A DNA stretch of 42,236 bases from Cyanobacteria bacterium SIG27 (GTDB taxonomy: Bacteria > Cyanobacteriota > Vampirovibrionia > Gastranaerophilales > Gastranaerophilaceae), in the NCBI GenBank assembly GCA_015152565.1, contig SUTT01000017.1, forward strand, positions 1 through 42,236, in the 5' to 3' direction. Below are positions 32,241 to 41,661 of this stretch, in pieces. Position numbers and translations under genes: made by a program. How positions within the stretch are numbered: the stretch's first letter is position 1; every line of letters starts with the position of its first letter. The notes below the pieces were generated by a model. The model searched no databases and was not told the origin of the DNA. It worked only from the letters and a program-made list of their open reading frames with translations.

Positions 32241-32340
32241 TAAAACCCCCCGTTAGGGAGGCTTTATGGAGCGGAAAGGCCTAAAATTCTAGGCGAAGAA
32301 TGAGCCATAGAATTTGGTCATATGGCGAAGCCATAAGGGG
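32241..32340 (-). repeat. tRNA-Gly-linked repeat, copy A
   Basis: 100 bp, nearly identical to copies B and C (differences in the hairpin and CCATAG versus CCGTAG), lacking the last 19 bp. Read on the minus strand it contains the tRNA-Gly acceptor end with CCA, then a GC stem and TTTTATT, like a terminator. Confidence 0.85.
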
Positions 32341-32484
32341 CTAGCCTTCTTGGATTTTAACAACTCAAAAACCAAGTATTTCGCTTTCAAAGCTTCGCTT
32401 TGTCGCTTCATTGGTTTTTTCAAACAGACGGGCTGGGTTCGCTTTTGCTCACACGGCGCCCTAGTTAAAATCCGCCGTCTGAAG
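32341..32484. repeat. 144-bp structured insertion between repeat copies
   Basis: No gene. It holds nested perfect pairings: GGATTTTAAC/GTTAAAATCC (32352-32361/32464-32473), AAAAACCAA/TTGGTTTTT (32367-32375/32411-32419), CAAAGC-TTC-GCTTTG (32388-32402) and CAGACGG/CCGTCTG (32425-32431/32475-32481). The last crosses the first. On the minus strand it has AGCGAA words like the nusG-rplK spacer. Confidence 0.7.
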
Positions 32485-32603
32485 CATAATAAAACCTCCC
32501 GCTAGGGAGGCTTTATGGAGCGGAAAGGCCTAAAATTCTAGGCGAAGAATGAGCCGTAGAATTTGGTCATATGGCGAAGCCATAAGGGGTCTACCCGTCG
32601 ACG
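32485..32603 (-). repeat. tRNA-Gly-linked 119-bp repeat, copy B
   Basis: Differs from copy C by one base (loop GCTA versus GTTA). On the minus strand the order is GCGAA-rich element, TTCCGCTCCA (tRNA-Gly acceptor end with CCA), CCTCCC hairpin, TTTTATTATG. The period to copy C and to the matching point at the tRNA-Gly terminator is 119 bp. Confidence 0.9.
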
Positions 32604-32722
32604 CATAATAAAACCTCCCGTTAGGGAGGCTTTATGGAGCGGAAAGGCCTAAAATTCTAGGCGAAGAATGAGCCGTAGAATTTGGTCATATGGCGAAGCC
32701 ATAAGGGGTCTACCCGTCGACG
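32604..32722 (-). repeat. tRNA-Gly-linked 119-bp repeat, copy C
   Basis: 118/119 identical to copy B. It directly adjoins the terminator of tRNA-Gly. Contains GGCGAA (32660), TGAG, ATTTGG and a second GGCGAA in the same order as the nusG-rplK spacer. Confidence 0.9.
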
Positions 32723-32729
32723 CATAATA

Positions 32730-32751
32730 AAAGACACCCTCAGGTGTCTTT
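32730..32751 (-). terminator. Terminator of tRNA-Gly
   Basis: 9-bp stem AAAGACACC (32730-32738) / GGTGTCTTT (32743-32751), then TTATTATG on the minus strand. It directly follows the encoded CCA. Confidence 0.75.
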
Positions 32752-32753
32752 TA

Positions 32754-32829
32754 TGGAGCGGAAGACGGGGCTCGAACCCGCAGCAGCCTGCTTGGAAGGC
32801 AGGTACTCTACCAATTGAGTTACTTCCGC
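32754..32829 (-). tRNA. tRNA-Gly (TCC anticodon) with encoded CCA
   Basis: Minus strand, 73 nt plus genomic CCA. The acceptor GCGGAAG pairs with CTTCCGC; the discriminator is T. The anticodon stem CCTGC/GCAGG encloses CTTCCAA, giving TCC. The T-arm has GGGTTCGAGCCC. It is flanked by repeats made from its own 3' end (downstream) and 5' end (upstream). Confidence 0.95.
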
Positions 32830-32937
32830 AATTATTATATTCAATTTTCACTTTTGCTATTGTAACTCAATTGGTAGAATGTGGTCAAGCCACGTTACTA
32901 CGTTTGCACTTCGCAAGGTTGAGTTACTTCCGCAATT
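32830..32937 (-). repeat. Direct and inverted tRNA-Gly 5' fragments
   Basis: Upstream of tRNA-Gly there is a 19-bp exact copy of its 5' end with flanking bases (32919-32937 matching 32815-32833, offset 104 bp). Between them lies a GCGAA-containing insert and an inverted copy of the D-arm (GTAACTCAATTGGTAG on the plus strand at 32862-32877). The copy lacks an anticodon and T-arm and cannot be a working tRNA. Confidence 0.85.
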
Positions 32938-38044: not shown

Positions 38045-38130
38045 TAAAAACCCCTTTAAAATCCTATTTTAATTTTATCTAAAAAAAATACTTGCGCAAA
38101 AATTATTTTTTGGTATTATAATCTAGTAAC

Positions 38131-38254
38131 AATTAAATAATAAAAACGATAATCCTCAGTAGCTCCCAAGTGAGCGAAAGCGAAACGATAAGAAATCGGA
38201 GCACTTGCGAAGCCATTGAGCGATAAACAAAAAATTAAATAGCAAAAACGATAA
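38131..38254 (+). repeat. Truncated and inverted tRNA-Asn 5' fragments
   Basis: A 35-bp stretch covering the tRNA-Asn upstream region and its first 13 nt occurs at 38131-38165 and again, 33/35 identical, at the real gene (38233-38267), offset 102 bp. Between them a GCGAA-rich insert (38166-38211) and an inverted D-arm copy GCCATTGAGC (38212-38221) are found. This mirrors the layout before tRNA-Gly. Confidence 0.85.
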
Positions 38255-38326
38255 TCCTCAGTAGCTCAATGGCGGAGCAACCGGCTGTTAACCGGTAGGT
38301 TGTTGGTTCGAGTCCAACCTGGGGAG
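38255..38326 (+). tRNA. tRNA-Asn (GTT anticodon)
   Basis: 72 nt. The acceptor TCCTCAG pairs with CTGGGGA (one G-U). The anticodon stem ACCGG/CCGGT encloses CTGTTAA, giving GTT. The T-loop is GGTTCGAGTCC. The discriminator is G, as for Asn. CCA is not encoded. Its 3' end is one boundary of a candidate island. Confidence 0.95.
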
Positions 38327-38330: not shown

Positions 38331-38347
38331 TTATTGGAAAAAATATG

Positions 38348-38374
38348 ACAGACCTTGTGTCTGTTATTTTTTTG
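38348..38374 (+). terminator. Terminator downstream of tRNA-Asn
   Basis: ACAGAC/GTCTGT stem (38348-38353 / 38359-38364), then TATTTTTTT. Confidence 0.65.
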
Positions 38375-38391
38375 CAAAATTACACAAATTC

Positions 38392-38404
38392 GGACTCGAA
38401 CCAA
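38392..38404 (-). repeat. Inverted T-arm fragment
   Basis: 13 bp, exact reverse complement of tRNA-Asn 38303-38315, lying 77 bp inside the island. Possibly a remnant of another tRNA-targeted integration. Confidence 0.6.
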
Positions 38405-38428: not shown

Positions 38429-38461
38429 TTTAATGGGACATTTGAAAAAATATTTTTCTGC
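38429..38461 (+). repeat. 33-bp direct repeat, left copy
   Basis: Exactly identical to 41867-41899; contains GGGACATTTGAAAA. It lies 99 nt inside the left att repeat. Confidence 0.9.
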
Positions 38462-38687: not shown

Positions 38688-41492
38688 ATGGATAATAAGA
38701 ATATAGTTGAGTATCGAAAATTAGTAGAAATTAAAAGATTAGAATTCGAAAAATTATATAATATTTTTATTAATTCTACGAATTATATAAATAGTAAAAG
38801 AAACATATTAATTGCAGCAATTGATTTAATGATTACAACATCAAAAAAGATGTCTTTGTATTCTGCAAACTCAAATGATATAGATAATATCTTATTTGAA
38901 GAAATAAAAAGTCTTTCCTTGGATGAGCTTATTAATATTGCTAATGAATCTTACACTATTGGAGCAATTAGCATAATACGCTATGTTATAGCTCAAAAAT
39001 TTATAAAAAATGAAATTAATTCTGCTATTGAATTAAAAGACAGTATTGAACAAATTAAAGAATCTTTTATTAACAAAGAACTTAAACTTTTTTATCCATA
39101 TTTTGATGATACTCATAAGGAAATATTAGATTTTATAAAAAATTATAGCAAAGGCAATCCTTTTCAATCTTGGGGACCATTATACAGATATTTATTGCCT
39201 TTTGTTTATGATTTAAAACTTCGTGATACAATATGGCATGCAATTGAAATTATAAAAAATGAACTTTTAAAGAGATTAGATATTGAAAAAACTTGGGAAA
39301 GTAAAAACTCTCAAGGTTGGTATAATAAAGTTCGCAGTTATTTCGGATTTGAAGGGCCCAGTAATTATGGTTCTCAAAGGGCTGTAATTATGCTTCATCC
39401 GAAAAGTATTCCTGACCATAAAAATGCAGTTCAAATGGTATGTTATTTTGATAAAGATAAAGTTTGGGCTGGTTGTGATATTGGGGTTAATTTAAGAAAT
39501 AAAAATTACAACATTAAAATTGACGATTGGGAAAAAATTACAGACATAGATTTTAATAATTGCTATGGTTTTGAAAGTAATGAAATTCTACTTGAAGAAA
39601 AATTTGAAGTGATAGTTAAAACATTAAAAGAAAATTTAACGTTTGCTCAAAACACAAACGAACAATTGCTGCAAAAATTTTCCTATATTGGCACACAAGA
39701 AATAGCTGAAGGAAATGCGGAAAAAAGCAGCAATGATGATGACGCAAACTTATATGATCCTTTTATAAATAATAATAATAAAGATGAAGATACAAATCAA
39801 AAACCTTTGCCGATTAGTGCAGCACATAATATAAAAACAAAAAAAATCTATCCCAATATTAAACCCGAAGAAGACTTCTTAGAACGAATGAAAATTGGTA
39901 AATACCTTGCTGATGAAATTATAATGGATAAAAAAGTAGAAGCTTTAAATGTAGGTATTTATGCTGATTGGGGTAGTGGAAAAACACAGGTTTTTAATTT
40001 CATAAAACAAAATTTAAAGACAAAAAAATCATTGAAAGATTATTTTGATTTTAGACCAGATATAGATAAGCAATATATTTGCGAAGTAGTAGATTTTAAT
40101 GCATGGCAGTATAATGATTTAGAACATATTTGGGCTTCATTAATGATGGCATTAATGAAAAAATGTACAGAAAAACATTGTTTTTATATTAAATATATAT
40201 TTTATAAGTTATTTGTATTTATAAGAACAAAATGGCAAGAGGTATTATTTAAATGTTTTATAATTGTCTTTTTGTTTATATTCTTACAACATATAAATTT
40301 TGTATTAAACAATACTTTATTAACTAATCTTTTTAGTTTGCCTCTATATATAAAAATTATTGGAATTATTCTGATTGCGTTATTTCCAGATTTATTTAAG
40401 TTTGGTTTATTAAATATAGATAAAGAATTTTTAAAATGTTTTAAAACTCCTGATTATAATGAACAATTAGGATTCAGAAATGAAATTAAAGATTTGATAT
40501 GCTATACATTAGACTATTTAAGTAATAAAGGGAAAAAGCGAATAGTTTTATTTATAGATAATTTAGATCGGTGTTCTTTTTCAAATATAAAACAAATAAT
40601 AGATGCCATAAGTCAATTTCTTGAAATTTGTAATCAAGAGAAAAACAATTTGGTTACAATTTTCGCAATGGATAAAAGTATAATACAGAATGCTTTAAAA
40701 GAAGAAAACATTCCTGAAGACAAAATTAATGAGTATTTAGATAAAATAATAAATCTTCCTATATATTTAAAAATGCCCAAAGAAATAAATAAATTAATTA
40801 ATAGATTATTTGGGGAAGAACCAAATGATACAAAAGAATATCTAAAAGAACAGTATTCTAAAAATCATTATTGTCCGAGAACACTTTCCAATATTCGTTA
40901 TTTAGATCATATGCGATATACTGTTTTTGATCAATTATTAAAAGACTATGAATATTATGCCGATTTATTTAAATTAAAAATAGGAGATGATAAAAGTTGG
41001 GAATTTTTAACAAATAGTGAAATTGAATCTAGTATTGAAAAAGATACAGAAGAAGTCAATAGATATGTTAATGCTAGCCTAACAACTATTTCTGAATATA
41101 AAAATATTGAAGAAAAAACTTTTAATTATTTAGAACGTGAATATAGTTGGACTATTAATAGACATATTAAATATCATGACAAAATTAATAATTACTATTA
41201 TGTCTTTGATGGAATAGTTTCTTTTCCGCAGAAAGAAATATTAATTGAAATTAAATATGTAAGAAATAAGGAAATTCTGGAATCGATTTATAAAAATGTT
41301 TTACAGCAATTGTTTAAATATTCTTCTGCTATTGATATAAATAAAAATCTTGAATTAATAATGGTTTTTGTTATTGATTCTATTGATAATAGAGAAGTTG
41401 TACAAATTGGCTTAAACAAAAAATTACAAAAAGATTTGTTAAATACAAAATATTTTGGTCAAGTTTTAATTATAAGTAAAAATGATTTGTAA
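38688..41492 (+). CDS. KAP-family P-loop NTPase with PD-(D/E)xK-like C-terminus
   Basis: 934 residues. The N-terminal region (1-380) is mostly helical, with a mixed domain at about 205-330. The KAP NTPase has Walker A ADWGSGKT (Lys432), the family stretch VVDFNAWQYND (468-477) and Walker B IVLFIDNLDRC (619-629). Two membrane helices (about 520-540 and 552-572) interrupt it, as is usual for KAP. The last 120 residues contain Asp841 and Glu854-Ile-Lys856 after a possible Glu816/Glu818, the spacing of a PD-(D/E)xK nuclease. KAP proteins often occur in anti-phage and mobile contexts, so a membrane-linked defence effector is inferred. No SD; ATG 38688 is preceded by a TATAAA-like box. Confidence 0.85.
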   Translation: MDNKNIVEYRKLVEIKRLEFEKLYNIFINSTNYINSKRNILIAAIDLMITTSKKMSLYSANSNDIDNILFEEIKSLSLDELINIANESYTIGAISIIRYVIAQKFIKNEINSAIELKDSIEQIKESFINKELKLFYPYFDDTHKEILDFIKNYSKGNPFQSWGPLYRYLLPFVYDLKLRDTIWHAIEIIKNELLKRLDIEKTWESKNSQGWYNKVRSYFGFEGPSNYGSQRAVIMLHPKSIPDHKNAVQMVCYFDKDKVWAGCDIGVNLRNKNYNIKIDDWEKITDIDFNNCYGFESNEILLEEKFEVIVKTLKENLTFAQNTNEQLLQKFSYIGTQEIAEGNAEKSSNDDDANLYDPFINNNNKDEDTNQKPLPISAAHNIKTKKIYPNIKPEEDFLERMKIGKYLADEIIMDKKVEALNVGIYADWGSGKTQVFNFIKQNLKTKKSLKDYFDFRPDIDKQYICEVVDFNAWQYNDLEHIWASLMMALMKKCTEKHCFYIKYIFYKLFVFIRTKWQEVLFKCFIIVFLFIFLQHINFVLNNTLLTNLFSLPLYIKIIGIILIALFPDLFKFGLLNIDKEFLKCFKTPDYNEQLGFRNEIKDLICYTLDYLSNKGKKRIVLFIDNLDRCSFSNIKQIIDAISQFLEICNQEKNNLVTIFAMDKSIIQNALKEENIPEDKINEYLDKIINLPIYLKMPKEINKLINRLFGEEPNDTKEYLKEQYSKNHYCPRTLSNIRYLDHMRYTVFDQLLKDYEYYADLFKLKIGDDKSWEFLTNSEIESSIEKDTEEVNRYVNASLTTISEYKNIEEKTFNYLEREYSWTINRHIKYHDKINNYYYVFDGIVSFPQKEILIEIKYVRNKEILESIYKNVLQQLFKYSSAIDINKNLELIMVFVIDSIDNREVVQIGLNKKLQKDLLNTKYFGQVLIISKNDL

Positions 41493-41635: not shown

Positions 41636-41661
41636 GGTTCGAGTCCAACCTAGGCAGTTTT
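41636..41661 (+). repeat. Candidate attR: duplicate of tRNA-Asn 3' end
   Basis: 24/26 identical to 38305-38330. Differences fall in the acceptor strand. No tRNA body precedes it. Confidence 0.75.

Follow-up and report, generated by a model that had tools for sequence, protein, structure and literature searches.

The window, that is, the whole 42,236-nucleotide stretch of DNA analysed here (contig SUTT01000017.1 of Cyanobacteria bacterium SIG27), comes from a relative of Candidatus Gastranaerophilales whose 1.84 Mb assembly (G000) is 95% complete. Near one end it carries an intact tRNA-Asn gene, identified by both ARAGORN and Rfam, which is preceded by a partial copy of itself and by an inverse of its own D-arm. 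The features of this region are as follows.

38092-38119, + strand: likely sigma-70 promoter (TTGCGC, 16 bp, TATTAT), assigned by eye and from relatives, 5' of both copies
38128-38152, + strand: pre-tRNA leader, first copy (AACAATTAAATAATAAAAACGATAA), from repeat search
38153-38165, + strand: copied first 13 nt of tRNA-Asn (TCCTCAGTAGCTC), from sequence and repeat search
38166-38211, + strand: core X, hairpin-rich (CCAAGTGAGCGAAAGCGAAACGATAAGAAATCGGAGCACTTGCGAA), at the would-be D-loop position, from sequence and relatives
38198-38202, + strand: GGAGC of the D-stem 3' strand, within core X, from sequence
38212-38221, - strand: inverse of the tRNA-Asn D-arm, exact over 10 nt (14/17 across 38205-38221), from repeat search
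38230-38254, + strand: leader belonging to the intact gene's pre-tRNA, containing AATTAAATA, a motif that precedes many tRNAs, from repeat search
38255-38326, + strand: tRNA-Asn (GTT), intact (ARAGORN, Rfam)
38345-38373, + strand: intrinsic terminator-like hairpin and T run, computed

The direct repeat (38128-38165 and 38230-38267), found by sequence reading and local repeat search, matches at 35 of 38 positions with a start-to-start distance of 102 bp, and the 13 tRNA nucleotides of the upstream copy are all identical to the start of the gene; the duplication reported by the first-pass annotation is thus borne out. The inverted D-arm copy described there was also recovered: 38205-38221 pairs with 38264-38280 at 14 of 17 positions in the local repeat search, and includes an exact 10-nt core, GCCATTGAGC, complementary to GCTCAATGGC (38264-38273) in the tRNA. 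Scores of 13 (copy) and 10 (inverse) compare with about 9 at the 99th percentile of dinucleotide shuffles, and none of 1208 wrong-tRNA pairings in this genome had a copy and an inverse at one gene; the two elements are not due to chance. Given the order copy, insert, inverse, copy, we agree with the earlier argument that ordinary tandem duplication is insufficient to explain the inverted piece. Template switching, one of the two mechanisms then proposed, fits this order in its fold-back version, while nothing specific to the other, RNA priming, was found. Repeat search also detected the tRNA-Asn T-arm in inverse form, exact over 13 nt, just 3' of the gene (38392-38404).

The suggestion that the duplicate contains the promoter did not hold. 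The likely -35 hexamer TTGCGC (38092-38097) and the likely -10 hexamer TATTAT (38114-38119), with a spacer of 16, occur once and precede both leader copies, and relatives have TTGCTA or TTGCAA and TATACT-like hexamers at the equivalent position; a consensus promoter scan did not list 38092-38119, and the assignment was made by eye and by comparison with relatives. The duplicated flank is therefore likely to be the pre-tRNA leader, and, judging from the promoter position, the unit is probably transcribed within it. A short RNA, as proposed earlier, could arise from this putative leader only through leader processing. A motif, (GA)AAATTRAATA, is found 10-25 nt 5' of many tRNAs (e.g., 38233-38241 on the + strand and 32838-32849 on the - strand) and is reminiscent of the region that follows boxA in rRNA leaders.

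Downstream of the tRNA-Asn gene, its 3' end is found again at 41636-41661 (24/26), 3.3 kb away. A gene for a 934-aa KAP P-loop NTPase (38688-41492), with PADLOC matches to QatA/PifA, lies between the tRNA and this 3' copy, and a direct repeat of approximately 35 bp (TTAATGGGACATTTGAAAAAATATTTTTCTGC) flanks the KAP gene near 38430 and 41870. The segment 38303-41661 looks like a small integrated islet without an integrase, possibly with a role in defence. Since the 3' ends of tRNA genes are classic integration sites, and since the 3' copy brackets the KAP gene, the repeats described here could be footprints of site-specific integration by integrases. The tRNA-Asn unit itself lies at the 5' end, is approximately 100 bp long, is geneless and includes an inverse arm, and a period near 100 bp recurs at many tRNAs, all of which makes integration a very improbable source of the units.

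A second unit in the window accompanies tRNA-Gly(TCC) and is followed by units of a 3' type.

32919-32933, - strand: copy of the tRNA-Gly(TCC) 5' end (GCGGAAGTAACTCAA), from the flank survey
32862-32880, - strand: inverse of the tRNA-Gly D-arm region (ATTCTACCAATTGAGTTAC), 18/19, from the flank survey
32754-32829, - strand: tRNA-Gly (TCC), intact (ARAGORN, Rfam)
32487-32731, - strand: 3'-type tandem units, 119-bp period, with the tRNA-Gly 3' end and terminator
32254-32340, - strand: another, displaced copy of the Gly 3' unit

Reading of all 36 tRNA loci in a 432-kb sample of the own genome, which includes the window, revealed the same design at Gly(TCC), Ala, Phe, Val (2 units) and His, each unit derived from its own tRNA, and relatives add units at Lys, Arg, Ile, Asp and Leu. 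Mirror units at 3' ends, in which the tRNA end and the terminator are repeated, occur in the own genome at Arg, Pro, Met, Val, Leu, Gly and others. The 3' units of Gly, Lys, Arg and Pro (L120, L091, L106 and window 32254-32731) have in common GGCTCATTCTTCGCC, or a close form of it, inside a longer hairpin.

A survey of tRNA flanks used four ungapped scores and two controls, with the threshold fixed on the first run, and covered approximately 30 tRNAs per relative. Matches were found at 16/36 tRNAs in G000, and at 10/28 in G003 and 20/32 in G032 (another genus), both of which were picked after matches had been seen there; among the genomes picked blind, G028, a third genus in which matches are mostly 3', had 17/29, and matches were scarce in G033 (3/31; a fourth genus of the family) and in two genomes of other families, G045 (2/32) and G035 (1/29). 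The corresponding control rate was 6-13% of wrong-tRNA pairings. A copy and an inverse at one gene were found in 3 (G000), 3 (G003), 4 (G032) and 1 (G028) cases, and the wrong-tRNA control, beyond the G000 figure given above, yielded 0/720 for G003 and 1/956 for G032. Moreover, exact direct repeats of at least 14 bp, 30-260 bp apart, were counted 11 times in the 13.1 kb that lie no more than 300 bp from a tRNA and 10 times in the remaining 419 kb of the 432 kb scanned, and are thus 35-fold denser beside tRNA genes. Between one and two thirds of the tRNA genes in each affected genome have self-derived flank repeats.

Of the 28 genomes of the genus, at least 15, own genome included, have a unit 5' of the tRNA-Asn gene, often in tandem. 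The first-pass annotation had proposed looking for the pattern at other tRNA loci and in relatives, and for conservation of the insert; the pattern recurs at many tRNAs as well as in these genomes. Arrays of 2-3 or more units are present in G017, G021, G023 and G025, with counts that are lower bounds where arrays meet contig ends, as several do. Six genomes (G006, G010, G012, G016, G024 and G027) have a tRNA-Asn gene without a unit, and in G012, G006 and G024 the unit-less leader is short and bears a GTACC hairpin. Decayed remnants are found in G018 and G022, and the inverse alone in G013. The arrays are polar, with degenerate outer units and a perfect inner or gene-side unit (G011, G014, G017, G023 and G026). 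The two leaders of the window carry ACGATAA, whereas most relatives have ACGCTAA, which shows that the copies evolve together. A search of 84,980 species genomes with a 19-letter pattern derived from the unit returned 11 stretches, 10 from Candidatus Gastranaerophilales assemblies and 1 from an archaeon, the latter probably a chance match.

In a comparison of 10 species, identity is 100% for the copy and 97.8% for the 9-nt core of the inverse, against 68% for core X and the linker and 48% for the preceding 60 bp, a contrast suggestive of selection on the inverse and not of neutral decay. Copy and inverse columns hardly vary in the alignments and offer little material for covariation, a single hairpin alternates between CGAT/ATCG and CGGT/ACCG, and most species retain GCTATTGAG in the inverse instead of the exact GCCATTGAG.

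The core between copy and inverse is not derived from the tRNA. Cores of the CCAAGTGAGCGAA type are found in Asn, Phe, Lys and Asp units of different species. A second core, ACTCTGCCGA...GAGAGG, is present at several tRNAs, with 44 matches in G032, 6 in G003 and 1 in G000 (a reversed control pattern had 0), and many of the G032 copies lie away from tRNAs. G032 has mosaic intergenic elements with nested hairpins of this core type (L237-L266), and two copies of the core lie inside a repeat of the TGTCATTCTGA type. Cores that are common to different tRNAs, dispersed in G032 and in two instances placed within another repeat could indicate that small mobile hairpin elements enter the D- and T-loops of tRNA genes, the survivors being insertions in a spare partial copy. 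REPIN, REP-RAYT and other small palindromic repeats are likewise short GC-rich hairpins (PMC3116915), as are the units, some of them dispersed in G032. Unlike these, the tRNA-Asn unit is built from the neighbouring tRNA and is undispersed in the window's genome, in which no RAYT was found. The Asn insert has no second copy in the own genome and its core motif occurs once in 432 kb, so a dispersed repeat in that genome was rejected for the Asn core. The PF01797 profile (Y1_Tnp, RAYT) has one match in G005 and three in G032 and none in G000 (95% complete) or G003; mobilisation by a RAYT was rejected for want of a transposase in these two genomes. Moreover, each inverse derives from the unit's own tRNA and would not be carried by a fixed element. 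Mobile hairpins are, on balance, an unlikely source of the units.

The position of the unit between promoter and gene raises the question of how leader and tRNA fold together. The leader by itself is predicted to fold on itself, copy with inverse, in a manner that permits the cloverleaf, which would leave the tRNA able to form during transcription. For leader plus tRNA, folding to the energy minimum is predicted to yield a trap, with the real tRNA paired to the copy or to the inverse, at 10/10 Asn loci and for 13/14 units of ten amino-acid types (the exception is Val-GAC of G032). Native acceptor pairing is predicted at 0.00-0.10 with the unit and at 0.10-0.84 with the leader shuffled, where one shuffle set preserves base composition only and energies are rough at such RNA lengths. 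The unit is therefore a potential trap for its tRNA; a role as a brake is conjectural. The copy and inverse could belong to a functional leader RNA in which they compete with the real 5' half, so that the precursor would become either a tRNA and be processed, or a trap and stay unprocessed. The folding predictions, the near-invariance of copy and inverse across 10 species and the location of the unit would agree with such a switch. However, the trap follows from the geometry of any upstream copy plus inverse, and its prediction is therefore not independent evidence of function. In addition, tRNA-Asn lacks a unit in at least 6 species of the genus, the corresponding 3' units are often located beyond the terminator, where transcription is not expected, and a search with Rfam covariance models (structured leader RNAs, T-box and others) gave only the tRNA above threshold. 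A functional leader is an unlikely reading, and the broader proposal, that leaders with a copy and inverse of the 5' half of their own tRNA form a lineage-wide, self-specific folding switch that decides the fate of each precursor, is less likely still.

With the anatomy of the unit, its recurrence beside tRNA genes, its concerted evolution and decay and its tyrT-like design established, the explanation that we prefer, at about an even chance of being correct, is that the tRNA-Asn element belongs to a class of palindromic repeats that is specific to this lineage and derives from tRNA ends, with an origin in fold-back copying, multiplication by tandem exchange, decay of outer units and tolerance by the host. 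The common plan begins with a duplicate of the 5' end of the tRNA in question, followed by a hairpin-rich core at the D-loop site and then by an inverted D-arm (or anticodon-stem strand); the leader and the complete gene come last, and 3' ends have a mirror version. We infer that a replication polymerase may fold back at tRNA stem sequences, copy a short stretch in reverse and resume upstream, which would yield copy, inverse and gene in one step as a miniature tandem inversion duplication. Subsequent unequal exchange, or gene conversion, between a unit and its neighbouring gene is supported by the alignments and would produce tandem units and keep the gene-side unit equal to the tRNA while outer units decay. 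In the RNA, copy and inverse of the leader would pair first and leave the tRNA free, and at equilibrium both are predicted to pair with the real tRNA; by default, the units would be tolerated rather than required.

This explanation as a whole is favoured by the recurrence of the units, the tRNA-linked repeat density, tandem growth, concerted evolution, polarity, the leaders that are empty (as in G012, G006, G024 and G016), the E. coli case discussed below and the junctions, which have turns of 2-4 nt at Asn, Phe, Lys, Val, His, Ala and Ile units, interrupted by core X. A simple fold-back does not account for core X, which lies at approximately the same place, the D-loop, in units of different tRNAs, with partly common sequence; this poor fit of the cores keeps the mobile-element alternative alive. 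The high conservation of the inverse, with its hint of selection, also speaks against the preferred explanation. No unit-forming event was caught in progress among the genomes compared. Tandem inversion duplication by fold-back template switching is known from Salmonella and, as ODIRA, from yeast, in cases that are usually far larger, and we know of none at tRNA arms. It has the order direct copy, inverted segment, direct copy in common with the tRNA-Asn unit and leaves core X unexplained.

The closest known system is the set of tyrT/tyrV repeats of E. coli (rttR or rtT RNA, tpr), from which rtT RNA is a stable product. There, too, a short tandem unit adjoins a tRNA gene, repeats the end of that tRNA exactly (19/19 in E. 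coli; 13/13 at tRNA-Asn) and has an inverse of one of the tRNA's arms around a GC-rich core, the T-arm in E. coli and the D-arm here. The program used in this study found, at tyrV-rttR of E. coli K-12, the 19/19 tRNA-end copy and an inverse T-arm, GGGGAAGGATGAGAAGCTTCGA, with a score of 14.5, 100 bp before the copy; with both elements at the 3' end, this locus is the mirror image of the Gastranaerophilales design. Tandem arrays are common to both systems, the window having one unit plus the gene and relatives 2-3 or more units, and a 175-bp rtT VNTR varies in copy number among Salmonella isolates (PMC2658671). The E. coli repeats differ in being at the 3' end of one tRNA with a unit of approximately 178 bp, whereas the Gastranaerophilales units are found 5' (and 3') of many tRNAs, measure approximately 90-105 bp at the 5' end and carry a D-arm inverse. 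Because the tRNA-Asn unit is at the 5' end, unlike tyrT/rtT repeats, it has tyrT-like workings, yet is not classed as a tyrT repeat; 3' units are present at Gly, Val, Arg, Pro and Met in the own genome.

No published tRNA repeats in the order Gastranaerophilales were found in the literature searched. What is new here is a tyrT-like design at many tRNAs, on both sides and in several genera, previously known from a single tRNA of E. coli, where the repeats have so far looked like a one-gene curiosity. Taking into consideration that several genera have these repeats and neighbouring genera do not, their origin and possible function can be tested comparatively. A leader trap in actual use would represent a new means of controlling single tRNAs; otherwise, the units would mark tRNA genes as hotspots of fold-back copying.
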